A DNA stretch of 64,000 bases from a virus, in the IMG/VR virus record IMGVR_UViG_3300027859_000009, positions 16,535-80,534 of that record; one strand, written 5' to 3'. Shown one piece after another: positions 16,047-48,913 of the stretch (positions are counted from its first letter, which is position 1; each line of letters begins with the position of its first letter). The translations under genes and the position numbers were made by a program. Below the pieces are notes generated by a model. That model saw nothing but the letters and a program-made list of their open reading frames with translations. It had not been told where the DNA came from and made no database searches.

Positions 16047-17072
16047 ATGAAAAGATTTTACCTAAAAGAAAATTTAAAAACATACAGTGAGTTTACATCA
16101 CTTAATGAAGAAATCAATATTGAAAACCAACAAGAAACCTCTATATCAGGTCAAGATATTGAGGGCGATGTCATAACTGGAGATAATCTTTCCGGTGAAA
16201 TTGATACCATCTTAGATAAATTAAAAGAATTAGAAGATGGAATAGAAGAAGAACTTGCGGTTAAATATTTAGGTCTTATAGAAGATAGAGACCTTTTTGA
16301 AGAAGAAGATGGCGCAATGGCCAAAATAAAAGATTTTGTATTTGTAGCACCTAAAGTTACAAAAATGCAGAAAAAAGCTAATAAAATTAGACTTAATAAA
16401 GAGGTCTTAGATATGACTGTACAAAATCCTGAAATAGATGGTAAGAAAAAGAAATCGTTAGAACAAAAAAGAGACGGACTTAAAGACCAACTTAAAGATT
16501 TAGAAAATGCAGTTACCCAATATCAAAAAGATAACGGTGGAAAATATTCTGCTAGAAAACTTGCTAAAACAAAAATTGAAGGTCAATTAGCAGCTATTAA
16601 GAAAAAGACTGGTATGTCAGATGACCCAAAACAGCAAAAGTCATTAGCACAAGATGCTAAAGAACTTGCAGTAAGATACAAAGAAGAAGTTGCAGCAACA
16701 AAAGAAATTGCAGATGCTGATAAGCCTTCACCGGAAGAAGTAGCTAAAGCTAAAGCTGATGAAATCAAAACTCAAAGAAAAGAACTTATCGATAAGAAAG
16801 AGTCTACTGATGATAAAAAAGCACAAGCAACTTTACAAGTAGAAATAGAAACACTTAACGTAAAAATAGCTGCATTAGAGAAAGAAGGTGAAGCAGAAGC
16901 TAAACAAGATTTAAAAGATGCTAAGGCAAAATTAGCAGAAATTGAATCTGGAGGAGCAGAAGCAGAAGCAGGAGCTGAAGGAGAAGCAGGAGCTGAAGGA
17001 GAAGCAGGAGCTAAAGGATATAATGAGTCTGAATTTGATGGTTCTGGTAGAAGTTTACCTATCGCAGAATAG
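16047..17072 (+). CDS. Putative prohead core/internal protein with capsid-targeting-like N-terminus
   Basis: 341 residues, highly charged. Residues ~10-21 read LKTYSEFTSLNE before another E, containing the KTY-x-x-F core of the T4 capsid-targeting sequence. The middle is K/E-rich coiled coil; residues ~308-327 are a repeated A-E-G/A-G-A tract. Like T4 core proteins it is rich in Ala, Lys and Glu and lacks Cys. Own late promoter directly behind the capsid gene. Assigned as head core or internal protein by composition, signal and position. Confidence 0.83.
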   Translation: MKRFYLKENLKTYSEFTSLNEEINIENQQETSISGQDIEGDVITGDNLSGEIDTILDKLKELEDGIEEELAVKYLGLIEDRDLFEEEDGAMAKIKDFVFVAPKVTKMQKKANKIRLNKEVLDMTVQNPEIDGKKKKSLEQKRDGLKDQLKDLENAVTQYQKDNGGKYSARKLAKTKIEGQLAAIKKKTGMSDDPKQQKSLAQDAKELAVRYKEEVAATKEIADADKPSPEEVAKAKADEIKTQRKELIDKKESTDDKKAQATLQVEIETLNVKIAALEKEGEAEAKQDLKDAKAKLAEIESGGAEAEAGAEGEAGAEGEAGAKGYNESEFDGSGRSLPIAE

Positions 17073-28489: not shown

Positions 28490-30742
28490 ATGGCACTAAG
28501 TCCTCAATTATTACAATTCAAATCAAGCGGTGTTTACCGTTTAGAATTTGATAAGTCTCAAGTATCTACAGTTACTGCAGAGACTATTAGGTTATTGGCA
28601 GGTCACTCTAAAAAAGGACCAATCAATACACCAGTATATTGCGAAGATACAGAATCTTTTACTCTTATCTTTGGTAATATCGATAAAAAATTAGAAAAGA
28701 AAGGAATGTTCTTTCACAGAAGTTGTTTAGAAGCTCTTAAAAGAGGTCCTATTCTAGCTATTAATTTAGCAGACCTTTCATCAGCAGATAAAGCTGACTA
28801 TTGGAAAATTTCAACAGATGCGACAGGAGCATCTGCTGCAGCATCTTCAACTTCAGATGATGAATATGAATCATTCCACAACACTGACAAATTTATGTTT
28901 GCATCAGACTCTGAGTTTTTAGCAACTGTCGGAGAACACCCTGAAGAAGCATTAAACATTGTTAATTTAGGTAATGATAATCTTTCAGTTATCGTAAGAC
29001 AAGCACAAGATGTTAAAGCTTTTGAAGTACAGGCTAGAGATTGGTATGGAACAGGAAATATTCCAGAAGGAATTTCTGAACTAGACTATATTTCAGACTA
29101 CATGGTCGATGTCTTTGTATTTAAAGGTAAATTTGACGCAGCTGCGTTAGATGCAGACCCTGTATATGGAGATTACTTTACTTCAACTGGTCTTAAAAAA
29201 GATAAACTTAACGCTTTTGCAGATGAAAGACAAATCACTTTATTATCACAGTATACTGGTTCAATCATACCAAACTTTCAAGATTTAGAAGGAAATGGTC
29301 TATACATTGAACAAATAATAAATGCAGAAACTAGAAGAACTGGTTTATTTTGTGCAGTTAATGAAGAAGCTGTAGAAGATTCAAAAGTAAATTTAGTAGG
29401 AATAAATGCTGCTGTTGCTATTGACGCTTTATCTTATCAGATTGGAGCTACAGCTAGAGCCATAGATTTCTCAACAACTGATTTCGTTTATACTTCAAAT
29501 GGTTCATCATTTGATTTCGAATCTGCATCAAATGATGATTTAGATTTAGTTGTAGGAGACTATTTTCCAGGAGCAACAGGTACAGATTTAGTTAAAGTAA
29601 CTAGAATTTCACAACAAGGTACTTCACCGACAGTATATACTGTTACATGTTCAGGACCAGTTGATTCAGGTTTTACAGTATCTTCTGATGTTGCGTTTAA
29701 ATCTCTTGAAAAAACAGCTACTGAGTACAGAATTTTTAATTTTGATGCAGCAACTTTAGCAGATCAGTCTATTTCAGATTGTTTAACTGCTATTTCATCA
29801 GATGGATTATTCTCTGCATTAACAGATAGAGACGTTATAGATTTAAGATATATTGTAGATACTTTTGGTTCAATAGATGGTTCAAACCTTTTAAATAAAA
29901 ATGAATTTACAAGAATCGCAAAAGAAAGACAAAACGTATCTTGTATATTAAATGCACCTACAGTTGCTGAATTTAAAAAATCAACAGACCCGTCGTTTAA
30001 AGATGCTACTACAAAGAAATTTAATACAAGATTTGTAAAAGATGGTGGTGATTTATCACAAAATCCAACTGCAATTTATTCGCTACCTTCAATTGCTGAA
30101 GGAGCTAATTACGGTTTTTATTACGGACCTGGTTTAGAAGTAAGAGAAAACGGAAAAGTTAAAACAGTTGTACCAGCAGCTTACGTATCTAATAACTATA
30201 TTGATAAATTTACAAATGCACTTCCTTGGTCTATTGTATCAGGACCTAGAAGAGGAGTTATTACAGGAACTAACGTTATTGGAGCTGAATATGCATTCGA
30301 TAAAACAGACAGAGATAATTTAGAACCTTTTGGAATCAACCCAATTGTATTTGAAAGAGGAGTTGGACTAAATATTAAAGGTAATAAAACAGGACAGCAA
30401 AGCGTAAAATCGGCTTTAAGTTCAGCTCACGTAAGAGAGGTATTAATCTTCATCGAAAATGGTTTAGCAGATATACTTAAAGATTACTTATTTGAGTTTA
30501 ACACTGCACAAACTAGATTAGAAATTAAAACACTTGCTGATTCATTCATGGATGGTGTTTTAGCAGATGAAGGTGTATTTGCATATAATAATGTAATAGA
30601 CTCAACTAACAACACAAATGAAGTTATAGATGCTAATATGGGTATCCTTGATACATTTGTAGAACCAGTTAAAGGTTTAGAAATTATTGTACATAGAACA
30701 ACAGTACTTAATACTGGAGATATAGCTTCAGGTAACTTCTAA
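28490..30742 (+). CDS. 18: Tail sheath protein, gp18-like
   Basis: Contractile sheath subunit. Typical N-terminus (SSGVYRLEFDKSQVSTV, then AGHSKKGPINTPV) and conserved C-terminal domain (GVGLNIKGNKTGQQSVKSAL, HVREVLIFIENGLADILKDY, FVEPVKGLEIIVHRTTV). The middle is variable, including an S/T/D-rich stretch. 750 aa against 659 in T4. Followed by a hairpin that would set its high expression level. Confidence 0.93.
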   Translation: MALSPQLLQFKSSGVYRLEFDKSQVSTVTAETIRLLAGHSKKGPINTPVYCEDTESFTLIFGNIDKKLEKKGMFFHRSCLEALKRGPILAINLADLSSADKADYWKISTDATGASAAASSTSDDEYESFHNTDKFMFASDSEFLATVGEHPEEALNIVNLGNDNLSVIVRQAQDVKAFEVQARDWYGTGNIPEGISELDYISDYMVDVFVFKGKFDAAALDADPVYGDYFTSTGLKKDKLNAFADERQITLLSQYTGSIIPNFQDLEGNGLYIEQIINAETRRTGLFCAVNEEAVEDSKVNLVGINAAVAIDALSYQIGATARAIDFSTTDFVYTSNGSSFDFESASNDDLDLVVGDYFPGATGTDLVKVTRISQQGTSPTVYTVTCSGPVDSGFTVSSDVAFKSLEKTATEYRIFNFDAATLADQSISDCLTAISSDGLFSALTDRDVIDLRYIVDTFGSIDGSNLLNKNEFTRIAKERQNVSCILNAPTVAEFKKSTDPSFKDATTKKFNTRFVKDGGDLSQNPTAIYSLPSIAEGANYGFYYGPGLEVRENGKVKTVVPAAYVSNNYIDKFTNALPWSIVSGPRRGVITGTNVIGAEYAFDKTDRDNLEPFGINPIVFERGVGLNIKGNKTGQQSVKSALSSAHVREVLIFIENGLADILKDYLFEFNTAQTRLEIKTLADSFMDGVLADEGVFAYNNVIDSTNNTNEVIDANMGILDTFVEPVKGLEIIVHRTTVLNTGDIASGNF

Positions 30743-30840: not shown

Positions 30841-31395
30841 ATGGCATTACCACATTATTCAAACGACCAAACTAGCAAGAAAGGTAAGAATTTTGAACCA
30901 GTATTAGCGAATATGTTTGAGGTAACTATTCTTCCACCAGCAGGAGTTGGAGGTCAAGAATTATTAATTCAACATATTAACAGTATTTCAGGTTTAGAAC
31001 TTCATAAAGATTTGGGAACAGTAACCCAAAAATTCAAATGGTCTACAAGGTCTTTTACAGGTGTACCTGGAGATTCCTTCTTAGACGTTACCGTTAATTT
31101 CTCATTAAACTTAAACGATGCAAATCAAATGTACCTTTACAAAACATTAAGAGATTGGTACAGACTAGCATATAACCCAGAAACTGGAGAAACGGGTCTT
31201 AAAAAAGACTACGTTGGACAGATGGTTATAGTTCAATTCAACAGAAAAGGTGATATTTTTAGAAAAATCACACTAGACGATTGTTTCGTATATTCACCAT
31301 TGAATCCATTGGCTGAAAATAACTATGAAACAGGAGACCCACAAGCAATTGATTGTGTATGGAGAGCTGACGTATGGTCAGAAGAATTAGCATAA
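30841..31395 (+). CDS. 19: Tail tube protein, gp19-like
   Basis: Inner tube subunit. NMFEVTILPP, ISGLELHKDLGTVTQKFKWS, TRSFTGVPGDSFLDVTVNF and FRKITLDDCFVYSPLNPL are tube-protein features (two-sheet barrel with a long loop). 184 aa against 163 in T4. It is isolated by a hairpin upstream and a strong terminator downstream, allowing independent dosage relative to the sheath. Confidence 0.92.
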   Translation: MALPHYSNDQTSKKGKNFEPVLANMFEVTILPPAGVGGQELLIQHINSISGLELHKDLGTVTQKFKWSTRSFTGVPGDSFLDVTVNFSLNLNDANQMYLYKTLRDWYRLAYNPETGETGLKKDYVGQMVIVQFNRKGDIFRKITLDDCFVYSPLNPLAENNYETGDPQAIDCVWRADVWSEELA

Positions 31396-31715: not shown

Positions 31716-32735
31716 ATGAGCAAAGAAGAAAACAAAAATGAAGAATTTGATAAATTCTTAAACAAAAAAGAAGAAGGCAACGGATACGATTCTGTTGAAA
31801 ACACTTCAACAGAAAAAGCTGGACCAGACTCAAACCCTGAGTTAGCCTCTTTTGAAGAAACAATCAATGAAAAAGGATTGGGTTCTGTAGATATTTCAAA
31901 CTATGGAAGAAAAAAGGCAGATTCTACAGATACTGTATTAGGTTATGTACCTCTATCTATGGAAACACTTTTTTCTAAAGGTAGATTTTATCCACAAGAC
32001 GCATCTATTCATGTTAGATCTGCAAAAGTTGCAGAAATTAGACATTTTTCAACAATGAACGAGCAAAATATTTTGGACATTGAAGAAAAATTAAACAACA
32101 TTGTAAAATCTTGTATTAGATTTGAATCAAAATCTAAAAAGCTTTCATATAAAGACCTTATGGAAGAAGATAGAATTGCAGTACTTTTAGCAATTAGAGA
32201 CCTTACTTTTCCAGAGCCTGAAAACAAAATCATAGTTCAAGCAGAAAATAGTTATGGTCAAACTAAAGATGTTGAGATTGCTACAAATAATTTTGTTGCA
32301 AATGAAATTCCAGAAGAAATAGAAAAGTATTACGATGTAGTTTCAAGATGTTTTAGAATTCAAACTCGCTCATCTGGAGAAATATTAATGAGACCCCCTT
32401 CTATTGGAGTTATGGAAGAAGTTACTAAGTATATTAGAACTCAGCAGGAAAGTAAAAAAAGATGGGACCAGGCCTTTATTCAAATCTTACCATATATTCA
32501 GTTAGATTGGAGAGGTTTTAGTTCAAAAGAAATCTTTAATCAAGAGATAGACTTCCAAGGTTGGAATGAGAAAAAATACATGGTAGTATATAGATTAGCA
32601 GAAAAAATGAGAATTGGCGCACAGCCGGAAATGCAAGTAGATGTTGACGGGGAGGACGTTTCGGTCCCTCTCGATTTCCCAGGTGGAGTCAAAAGCCTTT
32701 TCATTATTTCAGATCTCGCTGGAGAGCTTCTTTAA
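31716..32735 (+). CDS. Tail assembly chaperone, upstream frame
   Basis: 339 residues. The first ~85 are acidic and disordered; then GYVPLSMETLFSKGRFYPQD, SIHVRSAKVAEIRHFSTMNE and EEDRIAVLLAIRDLTFPEPE, with the 'P-S-x-G-x-F-Y ... I-x-I-R' layout seen in tail/baseplate chaperones (T4 gp26-like region). It lies just before the tape measure and its 3' end overlaps a second frame by 95 nt, the classic arrangement of frameshifted tail assembly chaperones. Product would bind the tape measure during tail assembly. Confidence 0.82.
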   Translation: MSKEENKNEEFDKFLNKKEEGNGYDSVENTSTEKAGPDSNPELASFEETINEKGLGSVDISNYGRKKADSTDTVLGYVPLSMETLFSKGRFYPQDASIHVRSAKVAEIRHFSTMNEQNILDIEEKLNNIVKSCIRFESKSKKLSYKDLMEEDRIAVLLAIRDLTFPEPENKIIVQAENSYGQTKDVEIATNNFVANEIPEEIEKYYDVVSRCFRIQTRSSGEILMRPPSIGVMEEVTKYIRTQQESKKRWDQAFIQILPYIQLDWRGFSSKEIFNQEIDFQGWNEKKYMVVYRLAEKMRIGAQPEMQVDVDGEDVSVPLDFPGGVKSLFIISDLAGELL

Positions 32736-32982
32736 GGCTAAATTCTATCTGGGTTTTCATTTGCATCTCCAGCCTAGTGAAATTGATGCACTCGACTTTT
32801 ATGAGTATCAGTATTATATACAAAATCTTACTGAGCATCTTAAAAAGCAAAATAAAGAAGAGGCTGAACAAAATGAACAGATGCAAGAGCAATATGGTAC
32901 AAAAGCACCAAAAACACCAAAAATGAGTGATTATGGGGTAAATATGCCTAAAATTCCAAGTATGAAAATGCCTAAGTTTTAG
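32641..32982 (+). CDS. Tail assembly chaperone, frameshift-extension frame
   Basis: Open frame +1 relative to the previous gene. Its sense-looking part starts near 32731 (FFKAKFYLGFHLHLQPSEID, then ALDFYEYQYYIQNL), which looks like the C-terminal extension domain of tail chaperones; the last 40 residues are Q/E-, then P/K/M-rich. The ATG at 32641 directly follows a stop and the first ~30 codons are atypical for this genome (CGG, AGG, TCG, GGG), so independent initiation there is unlikely. Fusion after L339 would give 421 residues. Confidence 0.75.
   Translation: MLTGRTFRSLSISQVESKAFSLFQISLESFFKAKFYLGFHLHLQPSEIDALDFYEYQYYIQNLTEHLKKQNKEEAEQNEQMQEQYGTKAPKTPKMSDYGVNMPKIPSMKMPKF
32721..32736 (+). 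promoter_or_regulatory. Probable +1 programmed frameshift site (prfB-like)
   Basis: GGAGAG-CTT-CTT-TAA-G: an SD-like purine hexamer, 3-nt spacer, CUU and an in-frame stop, the same order and spacing as the RF2 (prfB) site AGGGGG-UAU-CUU-UGA. Slippage of the P-site tRNA from CUU to UUU puts AAG of the second frame in the A site. Confidence 0.72.
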
Positions 32983-33010: not shown

Positions 33011-36000
33011 TTGGCAAGACCATTTTCATCCCCGTTTGAAAAATTATCAGTAGATAATCAGAAAGTTTTAATCGAACAGCTCTCCCCAGGAGGAGAGCTG
33101 TTTAGTTTGTTTGAAGAAATTTTAAATCAACTTCAAAGTACTGACGATCGCCAGCAAAAAGACGAAGCAAAAACAAAAGTAAGTTTATTTTCTGGTTTAA
33201 CAATTAAAGAAGCATTAGCATGGAAACTGCTAGGAGAAAAAGGTCTTCAATCTATAGGTAAAGGTTTAGGAGCGATAGCTGAAGTTATTGACAAAATGAC
33301 CACTGCCGGTAAAGAAGTTAAAGAAAGAATAGAAGGTATAGCGATGGGTATCGAAACGGTATTTGGCATTGCTCCTAAAATTCTTAAGTTTGCATTTACC
33401 ATGGTGCTAGCTCTTCCACTTTTAATGCTTGCCGTAGTAGCAGTGCCTTTTATAGGGCTATTGCTATTAGGTACTTTAGCAATAATGGGTATTTTAAGTA
33501 AAGTTGCAGAGAAACAAAAAGGAATGTATGAGAGTCTAGCTCTTTTAGGAGATGTAGGCGCTGCAATATTAAAATTTGGAGGTTATTTAGCACTTTCTGC
33601 ACTGGTATATCCAATAGCGTTACTTGGTATGATAGTAGTTATACCTACGTTGCTAATAATGTTAGCTGCGTTAACACTTATAGGACGTTTAGTAGACCCT
33701 AAATCTATGGAAAAATATAAAGGTTTAGAAGAAGTAGGTAAAGCAATACTTTTATTCGGTGGATATTTAGCACTCTCTTTATTAATATATCCATTTGCTA
33801 TATTAGCAACACCTATGGTTCTCGGAGTAATAGTTGGTTTTGCTGTAGTATTTGCTCTTTTAGATAGATTTGGTTTTGTAAAATCTGTAAATAAAGCTGG
33901 AAAAGCACTTAAACAAGTAGGAATAGCAATATTAGTATTAGGTGCCGCTTTATTTATTTTTGGACTTATTTTTCCACCTACCGTAGAAACATTTCAAACT
34001 TTAGGTTTTGTAATGTTAGTACTTGTAGGTATTTCTGCCGCTATGTGGTTAGTCGGTAAAATGTATAAAAAAATGAGAAAAGGTGCAATAGGACTTGCCT
34101 TAACAGGTCTTGCTATTCTAGTATTAGGATATGCCCTTAAGAAATTTGAAGAATCTTTGCCTGCCAATCCATGGGAATTCTTTGCTGAATTAGGAGTTGC
34201 ACTTGTAGGTTTAGGTGTAATAATGTATGGTTATGGTTCACAATGGAAAAGTATAGCAAAAGGTGCATTAGTACTTGCCGGATCTGGATTAGCCCTTGCA
34301 CTTATGGGATATGGTATTTCAGAAATAGGAGAAGCTTTAAATAGTACAGGAGATGCTTGGATGTTTATGGCTGAACTTGGAGTATTTCTTGTTGGTATGG
34401 GAGTTATGGCAGCAGGTTGGGGTGCAGCAGTAATGTTGATAGGTCCGGGTCTTTTAGCAATGGGTGGTGCAGGAGTTGCATTAAAATCAGTATCATGGGG
34501 TCTAGAAGGATTTATACCTATATTTAAAGGTTCAGAATGGAAATCTATGGTAGGCGAACATCATAAATCTAAAGGTATTTTAGGAATGGGTGGTGGATCT
34601 GTATCTAATTTTCAAGCTCTAATGGAAGCTGTAGGTTATAGCTTTATTTGGAACCCTGTTTCGGTTGCCGGTATTTTAGGAGGAGCAGCAGCTCTTGGTG
34701 CAGCAGGATTGGCATTAAAGCCTCTTGCTAAAGGTATTAATGATATGATTCCTATATTTAAAGGAAAAGGTTGGAAAGAAATGGTTGAAACTAAAGGAAA
34801 CCCTAAAGCCGGAGGTATTTTAGGATTTGGTGCTACTGAACAAACAAATATTCAACTTTTAATAAGTTCTATAGCAAACTCCTTTAAATTAGGCTTTGGT
34901 GTTATTAATGTAGGTGCAGGTGCAGGTGCAATGGCAATTGTAGGAAAATCTTTAAGTAAATTAGCAGTAGGACTAAATGATTTTATGAAATATAAAATAA
35001 GTAAAACTATTGCAAAGAATATTGCTTCTATGGTTGATGCAGTCGCCGGTACTTTTGGTGAGATAGGAAAAGAATATGGAGGTGCTGGCTTTTTTGGTTT
35101 GGGCGCAGGACCATTATATGATGGTATTGAAGCAACGATGGGAATGGGTGATGCTTTAACTAGCATCGCAAAAGGTATGGCTGCTGTAGCAGAACTTAGA
35201 TTTCCTACTTATGGAGACCCTAAAAACCCTGGTAAAATAACTGAATATATTACTTTAGATAAAGGTAAAATGAGAGACGTTTCAGCCAATGTTGCAGATA
35301 TGGTTGATGCTCTTGCAAGTGCTTTTGGTGAAGTAGGAAAGAGATATCCTAATAAGCCTGCATCTGGTTTATGGGGCTTTTTTGGAGGAACAGAGAATCC
35401 TGTAAAAACAGGTCTATCTTCAGTTAGTGGTATGGGAAGTGCATTAGGAGGAATTGCACAGGGAATGCAAGATTTCTCAACTCTTAAATTTCATAAATAT
35501 GATGACCCTACTAACCCTGAAAAAATAACAGCAACAATTGACTTAACCCAAGGAGACGTACTTAGTGAAGTTACTGCAAACATAGTTTCGATGATCGATT
35601 CTTTAGCAACAGGTTTTGCTCAAATAGGTATAAGATATCCAAAAGTAAAAAAGAAAGGTTGGTTCGGTATAACTTATTCTACTAATGGACCTGTTGGTGT
35701 AGGTATTGAACAATCTTCAGGTATGGGTGCTATTGTAGCGGCAATAGGTCAGGGAATGAGAGATTTTTCAGAAATGAAATTTCCGGTATATGATGGAACT
35801 AAAGTAGTAGAATACATTGATTTGACAAAAGGAAATGCCCTTAAAAAAGTTACAAGCAATATTACTGAAATGGTTCTATCTTTAGCTGGAGGTTTTGCTG
35901 AAGTTGCAAGAAGGTTCCCTAGAAAAAAATACAAAACTTGGTGGGGAGCTACCAGATATGCACCGGACGGTACAGTAGGTGAAGGGGTAAAACAGGCATC

Positions 36001-37363
36001 AGGTATGGGTGGTGTAATATCAGAATTAGGTTCTGGTTTAAAAGACTTTTCTACACTTAAATTTCCAATTTACAAAGGTACTAAAGTAGTAGGATATACC
36101 ACTCTTACTAGTCAGACTATGGGTAAGACGACTGACAATATCGTATATATGATAGAATCTCTCATGAATGGTTTTGCTAAGATAGGAGATAAATACGGTT
36201 CTTGGCCAGGTACTAGAAGTTCAGTACAACAAGGTGTACAAGCTGCGCAGGGCGCAGGATTTGAAGTTGCAATGTTGGCTATAGGTTTAAAGTCAATGGC
36301 TATGTTAAGATTCCCAATTTATAAAGGTAAGAGAATTGTAGGTTATGAATCTCTTACGGGAGATGGTATAGAAAAAGTAGCAAGAAATATTTATATGATG
36401 ATATCCTCTCCTTTAGATGCTTTCGGTAGGATTGGTAAAAAATATGGTGGAGAAGTCGTTAGTTTTATGGGAGTTAGAAGCGGAGATGGAGGAGACGTAG
36501 GTAAAGGTATTCTAGCCGCAAAAGAATTACCTAAAGGATTAGGAACAGTAATGGGTTCTATTTTGGGAGTAGTAAGTCATAAAAACTTTAAAGAAGTTGT
36601 AAAAGCAACACCTATAGTTTCTAAAATGGTTACTATGATAGGAGAATCATTTGAACCACTTGCTAAAGCAGGCCCTGATGGCATTATGGCTTCTGCAAAT
36701 GCAGTTAAATATTATTTTGAGCAGTTTGCAACTATAGAAACTCCAATCAAAAATTGGTTAAAGTTATCAGATAATTATAGAACTATGCAACTAACAAATA
36801 GATATTTTGCAGGTATCGCTCGCTCAACTAAAGAAATTGGAGAAACTCCAGTATTTGGTGCAATGATGCTTTCTAGATTAACTAAAACCCTACAAGATAG
36901 AAAATTAATGAAAACTGCCTTAGCAATGACACATATTGCAAATGCTTATAAAAAAATACAGGTATCTTCTACTGAAATGGAAATTGAGGCTTTAGAAAAG
37001 TCAACAGAGATGTTTAAAGCACTTTCTTATCTTACTGAACAGGGAGGTGAAACTGCAATAGAGGCATTAGGAGATAATTTAATTGAAGCTGTAAAAGAAT
37101 TAGCATCAATGATAGCTAATTTTGAACAGACTGTTGGTGACGCTAAAGACCAGAATGCTGATGTTGCTGAAAAAATGGAAAATACAGGAAGCATATTTGA
37201 TAGAGTAGCAGCAGTATTTTCAGATAATCCTGCAACACCAATAGGTCAGCCAACTCCTTCAGCTGATCCTTCACCATCTTCATCTTCTGGAGATATGCAA
37301 GAGTTAATAGATATATTGACTAGTGGTGACGCAATAGTTCAAGTACAAAAGACTTTTGATTAA
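33011..37363 (+). CDS. Tail tape measure protein
   Basis: 1450 residues, the longest gene here. The start is TTG at 33011, the first codon after an in-frame TAG, giving ARPFSSPFEKLS. Residues ~110-560 are strongly hydrophobic Gly/Ala/Leu/Val/Ile stretches (many potential membrane helices, as in tape measures that are injected); residues ~670-1150 are tandem ~95-100-residue repeats; the C-terminus is helical, then a Pro/Ser tail. At the usual ~0.15 nm per residue the length would suggest a tail of about 0.2 micrometre, an inference. Confidence 0.9.
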   Translation: MARPFSSPFEKLSVDNQKVLIEQLSPGGELFSLFEEILNQLQSTDDRQQKDEAKTKVSLFSGLTIKEALAWKLLGEKGLQSIGKGLGAIAEVIDKMTTAGKEVKERIEGIAMGIETVFGIAPKILKFAFTMVLALPLLMLAVVAVPFIGLLLLGTLAIMGILSKVAEKQKGMYESLALLGDVGAAILKFGGYLALSALVYPIALLGMIVVIPTLLIMLAALTLIGRLVDPKSMEKYKGLEEVGKAILLFGGYLALSLLIYPFAILATPMVLGVIVGFAVVFALLDRFGFVKSVNKAGKALKQVGIAILVLGAALFIFGLIFPPTVETFQTLGFVMLVLVGISAAMWLVGKMYKKMRKGAIGLALTGLAILVLGYALKKFEESLPANPWEFFAELGVALVGLGVIMYGYGSQWKSIAKGALVLAGSGLALALMGYGISEIGEALNSTGDAWMFMAELGVFLVGMGVMAAGWGAAVMLIGPGLLAMGGAGVALKSVSWGLEGFIPIFKGSEWKSMVGEHHKSKGILGMGGGSVSNFQALMEAVGYSFIWNPVSVAGILGGAAALGAAGLALKPLAKGINDMIPIFKGKGWKEMVETKGNPKAGGILGFGATEQTNIQLLISSIANSFKLGFGVINVGAGAGAMAIVGKSLSKLAVGLNDFMKYKISKTIAKNIASMVDAVAGTFGEIGKEYGGAGFFGLGAGPLYDGIEATMGMGDALTSIAKGMAAVAELRFPTYGDPKNPGKITEYITLDKGKMRDVSANVADMVDALASAFGEVGKRYPNKPASGLWGFFGGTENPVKTGLSSVSGMGSALGGIAQGMQDFSTLKFHKYDDPTNPEKITATIDLTQGDVLSEVTANIVSMIDSLATGFAQIGIRYPKVKKKGWFGITYSTNGPVGVGIEQSSGMGAIVAAIGQGMRDFSEMKFPVYDGTKVVEYIDLTKGNALKKVTSNITEMVLSLAGGFAEVARRFPRKKYKTWWGATRYAPDGTVGEGVKQASGMGGVISELGSGLKDFSTLKFPIYKGTKVVGYTTLTSQTMGKTTDNIVYMIESLMNGFAKIGDKYGSWPGTRSSVQQGVQAAQGAGFEVAMLAIGLKSMAMLRFPIYKGKRIVGYESLTGDGIEKVARNIYMMISSPLDAFGRIGKKYGGEVVSFMGVRSGDGGDVGKGILAAKELPKGLGTVMGSILGVVSHKNFKEVVKATPIVSKMVTMIGESFEPLAKAGPDGIMASANAVKYYFEQFATIETPIKNWLKLSDNYRTMQLTNRYFAGIARSTKEIGETPVFGAMMLSRLTKTLQDRKLMKTALAMTHIANAYKKIQVSSTEMEIEALEKSTEMFKALSYLTEQGGETAIEALGDNLIEAVKELASMIANFEQTVGDAKDQNADVAEKMENTGSIFDRVAAVFSDNPATPIGQPTPSADPSPSSSSGDMQELIDILTSGDAIVQVQKTFD
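33075..33102 (+). other. Perfect hairpin in the start of the tape-measure gene
   Basis: 11-bp perfect stem AACAGCTCTCC/GGAGAGCTGTT with a 6-nt loop, 64 nt after the TTG start, followed by TTTAGTTTGTTTG. Possible attenuator or translation-control structure. The left arm is also complementary over 8 nt to the frameshift region (32721-32728). Confidence 0.7.
35020..36440 (+). repeat. Tandem ~100-residue repeats in the tape measure
   Basis: Five to six diverged copies of a unit: SGMG, ~10 residues, QGMxDFSxxKFPxY, a short strand (VVEYIDLT), a helix NIxxMVxSLAxGFAEVxxRYP, then a W/G-rich loop. Copies begin near 35120, 35420, 35715, 35995 and 36230. Confidence 0.8.
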
Positions 37364-42016: not shown

Positions 42017-42880
42017 ATGCTACAACTTAACTTATATCCAAATCAGAAAAAAGGAATCAACTACGAAATTTATAAATTTCCAGACGGTCAACAATCTATT
42101 AAAATAGATGAATTTGCATTTCAACATGATCGATTTGAGGTAGAAATTGTAAGTCCTTTTACTTCATTCCTAGATTTAGAATTAATAATCTGTGCAAATC
42201 AAGCTCTTAAAGAAATGGGAGTTCAAAAAGTCAGTTTATATACACCATATTTCTTAGGTGGTAGAAGTGATAGAAAATTCGAAGAAGGAACTTCAAACTA
42301 TTTAAAAACAGTAGTTTGCCCAATTATTAACAGTCAAAACTTTCATAGAGTTACTGTTTTAGACCCACATTCAGATGTAATAGAAGCGTGTCTTAATAAC
42401 TTTAAAGGAATCGATACTGTTGATTTCGCTGAACAAGTTTTAAAAGATGTAAAAGCTCAATATTATCCGGTACAAGATTTAGAATATCCTATCGTGCTTG
42501 TATCTCCAGATGCAGGTGCTCTCAAAAAAGTATTTAAAATTCAGAAAAGTACAGGTATTAAAAACCTAGTTATTGGTTCTAAGAATAGAGATGTCAAAGG
42601 ACAAATAACACATACTTCTATTTCAGGACTGAAAGACATAAATATCTCAAACGCAACCTATATTATCTTCGATGATATATGCGATGGAGGTAGAACTTTC
42701 CTTGAACTTGCTAAAGTTATAAAAAAGGAAAAAGAAAATGCTAGAATAGTTTTAGCAGTAACACATGGTCTTTTTACTAAAGGTCTTCCGATCGAACATG
42801 TTGACCACGTATACACCACAGACTCTATTGTTCGTGAATTTGAATCAAAGAGTCTTACTATTATAAATTGTAACAAATAA
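42017..42880 (+). CDS. Ribose-phosphate pyrophosphokinase-like (PRPP synthetase family)
   Basis: 287 residues of the Prs family: VEIVSPFTSFLDLELIICAN, the SLYTPYFLGGRSDRKFEEG ATP-binding region, VLDPHSD, VLVSPDAGALKKV and the PRPP-loop IIFDDICDGGRTF. The catalytic flexible loop that normally carries KRR reads GSKNRDVKGQ. Followed 11 nt later by a NAMPT-like gene. Could make PRPP for NAMPT or, as in NARP1, act on ADP-ribose (Adps); sequence alone does not decide. Confidence 0.9.
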   Translation: MLQLNLYPNQKKGINYEIYKFPDGQQSIKIDEFAFQHDRFEVEIVSPFTSFLDLELIICANQALKEMGVQKVSLYTPYFLGGRSDRKFEEGTSNYLKTVVCPIINSQNFHRVTVLDPHSDVIEACLNNFKGIDTVDFAEQVLKDVKAQYYPVQDLEYPIVLVSPDAGALKKVFKIQKSTGIKNLVIGSKNRDVKGQITHTSISGLKDINISNATYIIFDDICDGGRTFLELAKVIKKEKENARIVLAVTHGLFTKGLPIEHVDHVYTTDSIVREFESKSLTIINCNK

Positions 42881-42891
42881 AAATCAATAAT

Positions 42892-44409
42892 ATGAAAATG
42901 AACAGCTTATTTTTAACAGATGGTTATAAAACTGGACACCATCAACAATATCCAAAAGGAACAAACACAGTTTATTCTAACTGGACACCAAGAGGAAACA
43001 AGTATGCACCGAGAGGTTGTGATAAAGTCGTTTCATTTGGACAACAAATGGTAATTCAATGGTTAGTAGACCATTTTAATGATAACTTCTTTAGTCAACC
43101 TAAAGAAAAAGTTTGCGGTCAAATGAAAGCTGAATTGTCAATGTACTTAAATACAGACTATGATGTAACTCATTTCGAAGAACTTCACGATTTAGGTTAT
43201 CTTCCTATTGAAGTTAAATCTTTAGAAGAAGGAATCGAAGTTCCTTTAAGAGTTCCAATGTTGACAGTACAAAATACTGGAAACTTTGGATGGTTAACTA
43301 ACTTTTTAGAGACTATTTTATCTAATATGTTATGGCAACCAATGACTTCAGCGACAATCGCTTTGTTATACAAGCGAATTTTAACTGAAGGTGCTTTAAA
43401 AACAGACAAAGATGCAATTGGTTTTGTAGACTTCCAGGGACATGATTTTTCTATGAGAGGAATGGGAGGATTTATGAGTACTATCTTAAGTGGACTAGGA
43501 CATGCTGCCGCATTTAGTGGAAGTGATTCTTTGCCAGTTATTGCAGCAGCCAGAAACTACTACAACGAATCTGGTTTCGTTGTCGGTTCAGTAAATGCCA
43601 CGGAGCATTCAGTAATGTGTGCTGGAACTAAAGGAGATGAATTAGGAACCTTTAGAAGATTAATGGATACCTATCCAACAGGAATATTAAGTATTGTATC
43701 TGATACCTGGGACTTATGGACAGTAGTCACTGATTATTTACCAGCATTAAAAGACGAAATTATGAGTCGAGATGGTAAAATAGTTATTCGACCTGACAGC
43801 GGAGACCCGGTAGATATTCTTTGTGGATATAACTCTCTTACGACAGACGAGTTCAAGGGCAAGGCAATCACTGTGGGTGATGCACATCCTGCTAATAAAG
43901 GTTTAATTGAACTTTTATGGGAAACCTTTGGAGGAACTACAAATTCACAGGGCTACAAAGTCTTAGACCAACATATTGGAGCAATTTATGGAGATAGTAT
44001 TACTCCAGATCGAGCAAGACAAATTATTGAAAGACTTGCTAGAAAAGGATTCGCTTCTACAAACGTAGTTCTAGGTATTGGAAGTTACACTTATCAATAT
44101 AACACTAGAGATACATTTGGTTTCGCAATGAAAGCAACCTATGTTGAAGTTGAAGGAAAAGGAAGAGAAATCTTTAAAGACCCTATCACAGATGATGGAA
44201 CCAAAAAATCTGCAAAAGGTTTATTACATGTAAGTAAGAACCCAGAAACTGGAGAACTAGAACTAAGAGATATGGTTTCTAGAAAAACAGAAGCAGAAGG
44301 AGAATTAAAAACTATTTTCAAAGACGGTAAATTCTACAATAGAACTACCTTAACTGAAGTTAGAAATAAAATCTCTAACTTGATTACAGACCCTAAATTG
44401 GTTAAATAA
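42892..44409 (+). CDS. nadV: Nicotinamide phosphoribosyltransferase-like (NAMPT/NadV family)
   Basis: 505 residues, full NAMPT length. SLFLTDGYKTGHHQQYP at the start, DFQGHDFSMRGMGGF, catalytic-His region ATEHSVMCAG (H239), IVSDTWDLW and the phosphoribosyl-binding RPDSGDP (D302). Paired with the Prs-like gene in one early operon ended by a strong terminator. Either an NMN-forming salvage enzyme or a nicotinamide ADP-ribose transferase (Namat) of the NARP1 pathway. Confidence 0.93.
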   Translation: MKMNSLFLTDGYKTGHHQQYPKGTNTVYSNWTPRGNKYAPRGCDKVVSFGQQMVIQWLVDHFNDNFFSQPKEKVCGQMKAELSMYLNTDYDVTHFEELHDLGYLPIEVKSLEEGIEVPLRVPMLTVQNTGNFGWLTNFLETILSNMLWQPMTSATIALLYKRILTEGALKTDKDAIGFVDFQGHDFSMRGMGGFMSTILSGLGHAAAFSGSDSLPVIAAARNYYNESGFVVGSVNATEHSVMCAGTKGDELGTFRRLMDTYPTGILSIVSDTWDLWTVVTDYLPALKDEIMSRDGKIVIRPDSGDPVDILCGYNSLTTDEFKGKAITVGDAHPANKGLIELLWETFGGTTNSQGYKVLDQHIGAIYGDSITPDRARQIIERLARKGFASTNVVLGIGSYTYQYNTRDTFGFAMKATYVEVEGKGREIFKDPITDDGTKKSAKGLLHVSKNPETGELELRDMVSRKTEAEGELKTIFKDGKFYNRTTLTEVRNKISNLITDPKLVK

Positions 44410-48836: not shown

Positions 48837-48909
48837 GGGGGATTGATGAAATCGGCTATCATAGCACCCTTGCACGGTGCCTTTCCGAGTTCGAGTCTCG
48901 GATCCTCCA
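48837..48909 (+). tRNA. tRNA-Ala (anticodon TGC)
   Basis: Complete cloverleaf: acceptor 48837-48843 with 48902-48908; D stem 48846-48849 with 48859-48862; anticodon stem 48864-48868 with 48876-48880, anticodon TGC at 48871-48873; T arm 48885-48901 with TTCGAGT loop. The third acceptor pair is G-T (48839-48906), the G3:U70 alanine identity element. The discriminator is A48909 and the next bases are CAC, so CCA is not encoded. Confidence 0.95.
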
Positions 48910-48913
48910 CACA

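Follow-up and report, generated by a model that had tools for sequence, protein, structure and literature searches.

The window analysed here is a stretch of 64,000 nucleotides belonging to an 80,534-bp IMG/VR virus record (IMGVR_UViG_3300027859_000009, positions 16,535 to 80,534). Its 26.6-37.4 kb region carries a T4-type large terminase together with tail sheath and tail tube genes, two overlapping reading frames and a tape measure ORF. The elements around the overlap are distributed as follows:

28490-30742: tail sheath gene, upstream of the tail tube gene
30841..31395, + strand: tail tube protein (phrog_45 / phrog_34521), upstream neighbour
31716..32735, + strand: ORF1 ("G", gp26/gp51-family chaperone, 339 aa), frame 0, product of ordinary decoding
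32641-32982, + strand: ORF2, frame +1 relative to ORF1, overlapping the end of ORF1
32695..32982, + strand: T extension in the +1 frame (GCC TTT TCA ... TAG), which the shift would join to ORF1
33011..37363, + strand: tape measure protein ORF, 1450 aa, TTG start, downstream neighbour, assigned by position and length

One 67-aa ORF lies between the tail tube gene and ORF1, and a family search with the tape measure ORF gave no strong match. The order of the genes (sheath 28490, tube 30841, ORF1 31716, tape measure 33011), with a second ORF conserved in another frame as an extension of ORF1, is that of a G / GT locus. ORF1 stops at TAA 32733-32735, and a shift of +1 or -2 is needed to pass from frame 0 into ORF2, as the first-pass annotation had it. 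The T extension (A-F-S-L-F-Q-I-S-L-E-S-F-F-K-A-K...) is present in a single copy in the 80.5-kb record, and only in the +1 frame. The overlap is indeed GC-rich: positions 32641-32700 contain 53% G+C compared to 31% for the window, the 99.6th percentile of 60-nt windows. A hairpin proposed at 32649-32672 found no support, since shuffled sequence folds equally well (z 0.0, identical locus L002) and relatives have no consistent counterpart.

Other features were observed in the window and its relatives. A 12-bp inverted repeat, ACAGCTCTCC-CCAGGA-GGAGAGCTGT, is located at window positions 33075-33103, early in the tape measure ORF, and a longer version (15-16 bp) occupies the same place in close relatives L003 and L006. 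In L026, L028, L030, L047 and L060, a hairpin of 11-13 bp is found about 25 nt after the T stop, before the tape measure gene; its arms (AGGGGTATG...CATACCCCT, AGGGGCATG...CATGCCCCT) show compensatory changes, and it possibly regulates tape measure translation. Further downstream, an adjacent ribose-phosphate pyrophosphokinase (phrog_619) and nicotinamide phosphoribosyltransferase (phrog_448) at 42017-44409 form a NAD+ salvage pair. The only tRNA found in the window is tRNA-Ala(TGC), at 48837-48910.

The distribution of this gene arrangement among viruses was analyzed. A scan of viral contigs for ORF1, confirmed by tblastn, gave 62 loci, and a second large clade (clade 2), about 25-28% identical to the window, comprises 80 loci. 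ORF1 homologues were thereby identified in 62 + 80 viral loci and 31 phage records; the more distant ones include Lak megaphages, PAU, pT24, PTm1, MA9V-1/2, MaF61 and several uncultured huge phages. The two-frame layout is shared by over 160 metagenomic loci, and cultured phages have it as well. In the close relatives that reach the junction, ORF1 ends with a Leu codon followed by CTT-TAA-G, and the same +1 peptide comes after. From these comparisons, the overlapping frames are a genuine recoding locus. PAU gp94 (L069 3962-4099) is annotated as an independent 45-aa gene with its start inside the T domain; the frameshift extension has probably been annotated here in truncated form. The +1 T domain of the Lak phages (L065, L066, L084) starts at a more downstream position, and in Lak-B ribosomes would get to it only by decoding TAG as an amino acid, a recoding known for these phages. 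A literature search combining Lak phage, frameshift and tail found no paper.

To which protein family do the two frames belong? Five of 17 family members match PF12322 (T4_baseplate), with a best E of 3.4e-8. Only L064 exceeds the curated cut-off (29.2 bits against 24.5), and the ORF1 protein of the window is itself not above the PF12322 / phrog_150 cut-off; membership in the T4 gp26/gp51 family, defined by homology to PF12322 / phrog_150, is established through family members. The predicted fold of ORF1 (pLDDT 76) matches "baseplate hub assembly protein, bacteriophage T4-like" and gp51-like proteins, while the search with this fold in PDB returned nothing. ORF2 matches phrog_634 (baseplate hub assembly catalyst) at E 3.8e-6, as do 10 of the 17 family members at E up to 1, which identifies a gp51-type C-terminal extension. 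An hhalign comparison of the T domain with the single gp51 sequence was negative, so the homology between them rests on phrog_634 and on the reading of the alignment. The T-domain model has no significant fold match; the helix predicted for T is continuous across the zero-frame stop and junction, with moderate confidence.

T4 gp26 and gp51 are paralogues, as each of them matches PF12322 as well as phrog_150. They are separate genes on opposite strands, and gp51 has about 45 extra C-terminal residues, within the phrog_634 region that ORF2 matches. The second frame at our locus encodes the counterpart of this extension, which sets gp51 apart from its paralogue gp26. The simplest reading of these homologies would be that T4 possesses G and GT in the form of gp26 and gp51, encoded by duplicated genes; T4 seems to have split a frameshifted pair into two genes. 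The G-T frameshift is among the most conserved recoding events in tailed phages. The T4 literature describes gp26 and gp51 as hub assembly chaperones and gp51 as an essential protein whose function is unknown (PMC3004832). A 2016 review describes the G-T frameshift as conserved in long-tailed phages "except T4", with -1, -2 and +1 shifts all used in the G-T genes of different phages (PMC5009743). We found no paper equating gp26/gp51 with G/GT in the literature collection searched.

To locate the change of frame, we examined the constraint on each codon position. The elements of the junction considered below, all on the + strand, are:

32676..32681, + strand: TTC CCA, ancestral UUU_C(rare codon) position, altered in the clade of the window according to alignments, tree and codon usage
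32676..32696, + strand: bracket of the frameshift, TTC CCA GGT GGA GTC AAA AGC, codons -19 to -13
32681..32686, + strand: SD-like AGGTGG, 4 nt upstream of AAA, putative stimulator
32691..32694, + strand: candidate slip site AAA_A, where a P-site AAA would re-pair with AAA in the +1 frame
32697..32732, + strand: dual-coding stretch, frame 0 LFIISDLAGELL, frame +1 FSLFQISLESFF
32721..32736, + strand: GGAGAG-CTT-CTT-TAA-G, containing the zero-frame stop and unlikely to be the main shift site

Pairwise variability by codon position was calculated for 27 dereplicated close relatives. In codons -50 to -16 the frame-0 third positions vary. From codon -15 and throughout the dual-coding stretch they are almost fixed, and it is the first positions, i.e. 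the third positions of frame +1, that vary; past the zero-frame stop, constraint bears on frame +1 only. Clade 2 shows the same pattern, with frame-0 third positions free to codon -17 (compared to -16 in clade 1) and a switch at codon -17/-16. The switch in constraint is confirmed by 56 dereplicated clade-A sequences. We also counted the possible single-base changes that are silent in frame 0 but not in +1. In clade 1 such changes are observed at 52/55 sites of codons -50..-20 compared to 5/28 of codons -12..-1, and in clade 2 at 37/48 upstream sites compared to 2/20 in codons -12..-1. It is because these changes are scarce there that 32697-32732 is considered dual-coding. Within the stretch itself, which is under constraint in both frames, a Fisher test does not reach significance alone (p 0.2-0.4). 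The +1 frame is constrained over some 12-15 codons upstream of the stop in two independent and divergent clades, and the conserved helix of the T domain begins at that point. The V/I/L-F-S-L-F... alignment of the T domain is conserved across lineages, and distant relatives keep the +1 peptide V/I/L-F-S-L-F/I... upstream of the stop without CTT-TAA or SD.

These data bracket the shift. The upper limit is given by +1-frame stops found just upstream of codon -20 in L024 and L064. The lower limit is given by the +1 constraint, which starts at about codon -15 to -13, and by the conserved V/I/L-F-S-L-F. The counterpart in T4 gp51 of the upstream +1 residues is D-V-F-K-L-L; because a hydrophobic residue precedes F-x-L there too, +1 reading would start by codon -13. 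The shift probably takes place about 13 codons before the site at the end of ORF1 that the first-pass annotation had favoured.

Which codon slips seems to differ between lineages. Most lineages have TTT followed by C at codon -19 or its counterpart: TTT CCC in clade 2, L024, PAU, pT24 and L070, TTT CGT/CGC in L043, L051, L052, L057 and L061, and TTT followed by CGA (MaF61), CAA (L064, Lak) or CCT (L079, L082). In clade 2 the CCC is fixed in 54/54 unique sequences, and CCC accounts for 32 of 2375 Pro codons (1.3%). CGN codons are likewise rare in most of these genomes, PAU being an exception for CGT. UUU_C followed by a rare codon is thus found in clade 2, L024, L043, L051, L061, PAU, pT24 and MaF61, and not in the window, which has UUC_CCA. 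There is no slip sequence common to all lineages: MA9V has neither UUU_C nor AAA_R, and PTm1 has neither of them at this position. In the ORF1 tree the UUC clade of the window is nested among UUU_C lineages, therefore its slip site is derived; four clade-A sequences still have TTT. Many relatives carry AGGAGGU (GAGGAGGTCCAC) 16 nt upstream of UUU_C, with third positions nearly all fixed in clade 2. An example is L075 (clade 2), codons -29 to -26 before the zero-frame stop. GAGGAGGTCCAC is a perfect Shine-Dalgarno complement inside a gene, and the likely hosts rarely use SD. It looks like a real RNA-level signal; as a prfB-type stimulator of UUU_C it was rejected, the spacing of 16 nt being too long.

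In the clade of the window, the favoured site is AAA_R with an SD-like stimulator, with chances that we put a little short of even. It is favoured because AAA (32691-32693, then A or G) is the only codon of the bracket whose tRNA would re-pair after a +1 slip, and because the third positions of AGGUGG are fixed while the next one is free: in clade A, codons -18 and -17 are fixed at their 4-fold sites (CCA 55/56, GGT 56/56) and codon -16 has a free third base (C40/A15/T1). The AAA codon is AAA in 54/56 clade-A sequences and AAG in 2/56, and these two argue against an AAA_R site. AGGUGG has an internal mismatch in the register giving a prfB-like spacing, and Bacteroidota ribosomes occlude their anti-SD (PMC8710568). 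A clade-A hairpin predicted by alifold between GYCCCU (32664-32669) and AGGUGG (32681-32686) shows almost no compensatory change and is not claimed. The fusion peptide predicted from a shift at AAA is AFSLFQISLESFFK, which a CTT-TAA site cannot yield; other sites of the bracket would give a longer +1 part.

A variant within the same bracket is that the window, too, slips at the ancestral position, UUC_CCA (32676-32681), with incomplete re-pairing in the P site. Two observations speak for it: codons -18 and -17 are fixed at their 4-fold sites, a pattern shared with the UUU_CCC block in clade 2, and four clade-A sequences retain TTT. Yet UUC to UCC mispairs in the middle and CCA is a common codon, so that TTC CCA would make a poor +1 site, and we regard this variant as unlikely.

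The slip proposed in the first-pass annotation, a prfB-like +1 shift at the end of ORF1 with P-site CUU re-pairing on UUU at CUU_UAA_G and SD-like GGAGAG 3 nt upstream, is less probable again, at roughly one chance in eight. The motif GGA GAG CTT CTT TAA G was found as described at 32721-32736, in the layout of SD-like hexamer, 3-nt spacer, CUU and stop. CTT TAA G is kept in 61/62 close loci (the remaining one does not reach the junction) and in 73/73 unique clade-A sequences. The prfB frameshift is itself widely retained among Bacteroidia, and that of F. johnsoniae has a perfect SD (PMC8710568). However, constraint on the +1 frame sets in before the zero-frame stop is reached, not from the CUU-stop onwards. 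The SD-like hexamer is lost in several lineages: GGAGAG is replaced by TCAGAA in L051, L057, L058 and L059 and by GACGAA in L061 and L064, all without a GGAG element. CTT TAA is missing from clade 2 and other distant relatives, in which the upstream +1 peptide nevertheless persists; their stop contexts are AAA GAA TAA in clade 2, TTT TCT TAA in PAU, CTT ATT TAA in MA9V-1, TTA TTA TAA in pT24 and CTA TTA TGA in PTm1. UAA is found in all close relatives, not the UGA read by RF2 only on which prfB autoregulation is based. Moreover the invariance of CTT-TAA-G is imposed by the two overlapping frames (L-L-stop and F-F-K), therefore its conservation is no evidence for a slip there. The claim of a programmed +1 (or -2) frameshift in a tail assembly chaperone is supported, while its placement at CTT-TAA is not; this is probably not the main shift site and could be a minor second one. 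A shift there would yield the predicted fusion peptide SLFIISDLAGELLK.

A -1 slippery heptamer X XXY YYZ does not apply, the target frame being +1/-2. A -2 shift at AGC_CUU_UUC (32694-32702), where A-site UUC would re-pair with UUU, has a precedent in the arterivirus -2 site. Its product would read ...SLFSLFQ..., compared to AFSLFQ... from the bracket. Most lineages have NTT TTY, among them MA9V, PTm1 and L072, which have no UUU_C there, but it is absent in L061, L079/L082, pT24 and Lak, and NTTTTC follows from dual coding. The hydrophobic +1 residue before F-S-L-F is conserved, also in T4 gp51, which places the start of +1 reading earlier; we hold a -2 shift at this point to be quite remote.

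Production of the T protein by internal initiation or re-initiation inside ORF1, with no frameshift, is about as hard to sustain and marginally less probable. The window has an ATG at 32641 in the +1 frame, but upstream of the T domain this frame contains no ATG in 138/164 loci and no ATG/GTG/TTG at all in 19/164, and the +1 constraint begins at the bracket and not at a start codon. An internal start for ORF2 was rejected, its start codon not being conserved. A sequencing indel splitting one gene, with nothing in its favour beyond the split itself, has practically no chance of being the cause, because the relatives (>160 independent contigs, PAU, pT24, PTm1, MA9V-1/2 and MaF61) carry the same split.

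We consider it probable that the locus encodes a hub chaperone pair of the gp26/gp51 family, expressed by programmed +1 ribosomal frameshifting within 32676-32696. Most ribosomes would read ORF1 to TAA and make a short chaperone, the presumed counterpart of gp26 and lambda gpG. Some would slip by +1 within 32676-32696, 13-19 codons before the stop, and make a fusion of about 420 aa with the helical T extension, the presumed counterpart of gp51 and lambda gpGT. The direction (+1 rather than -2), the exact P-site codon, the efficiency and these roles are suggested by the comparisons above. At the ancestral site, UUU_C before a very rare codon, P-site tRNA-Phe would move from UUU onto UUC during the delay at the A site. 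In the clade of the window UUU_C became UUC_CCA, and the slip would most likely have moved to AAA_A (32691-32694) behind AGGUGG, a prfB-like layout without a stop codon.

Tail assembly chaperone frameshifts were reportedly treated by Xu, Hendrix and Duda in 2004. As for lambda G / GT, our locus lies between tail tube and tape measure and has a short product with a frameshifted extension; unlike lambda, the shift would be +1 (or -2), there is no XXXYYYZ heptamer, and the proteins belong to the T4 gp26/gp51 family with a long dual-coded overlap. As for T4, the ORF1 family matches PF12322 and the +1 extension has its match in the C-terminal region of gp51 (phrog_634), whereas T4 has two opposite-strand genes instead of one gene with a frameshift. 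Concerning prfB (RF2), GGAGAG-CUU-CUU-UAA resembles its site and AGGUGG-N-RUC-AAA_A has a similar geometry; the differences are UAA in place of UGA, an SD at CUU_UAA that is not conserved, and a change of frame upstream of the stop. Influenza A PA-X UUU_CGU is a known +1 site with a rare A-site codon, and CCC +1 sites are known in SPP1 and Listeria PSA. UUU_CCC, UUU_CGU, UUU_CGC and UUU_CGA are carried by relatives of the window, while the window itself has UUC_CCA. SPP1 uses rare CCC in another gene (PMC6316719).

Extending this to the family, we lean towards the view that large phages of Bacteroidota (PAU, pT24, PTm1, MA9V and Lak relatives) use a single gene for both the gp26-type and the gp51-type chaperone, with a +1 shift at a rare-codon UUU_C site whose position in the overlap has changed during evolution, where T4 uses duplicated genes. 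The family would offer a natural series of +1 sites (UUU_CCC, UUU_CGY, AAA_R) in hosts with a hidden anti-Shine-Dalgarno, and corrects annotations that list T as a gene of its own or omit it, such as PAU gp94. If gp26 and gp51 are paralogues, of which one has a T extension, and these relatives make both from one frameshifted gene, T4 fits the G-T scheme, and a testable role would emerge for gp51, so far described as having no known function.
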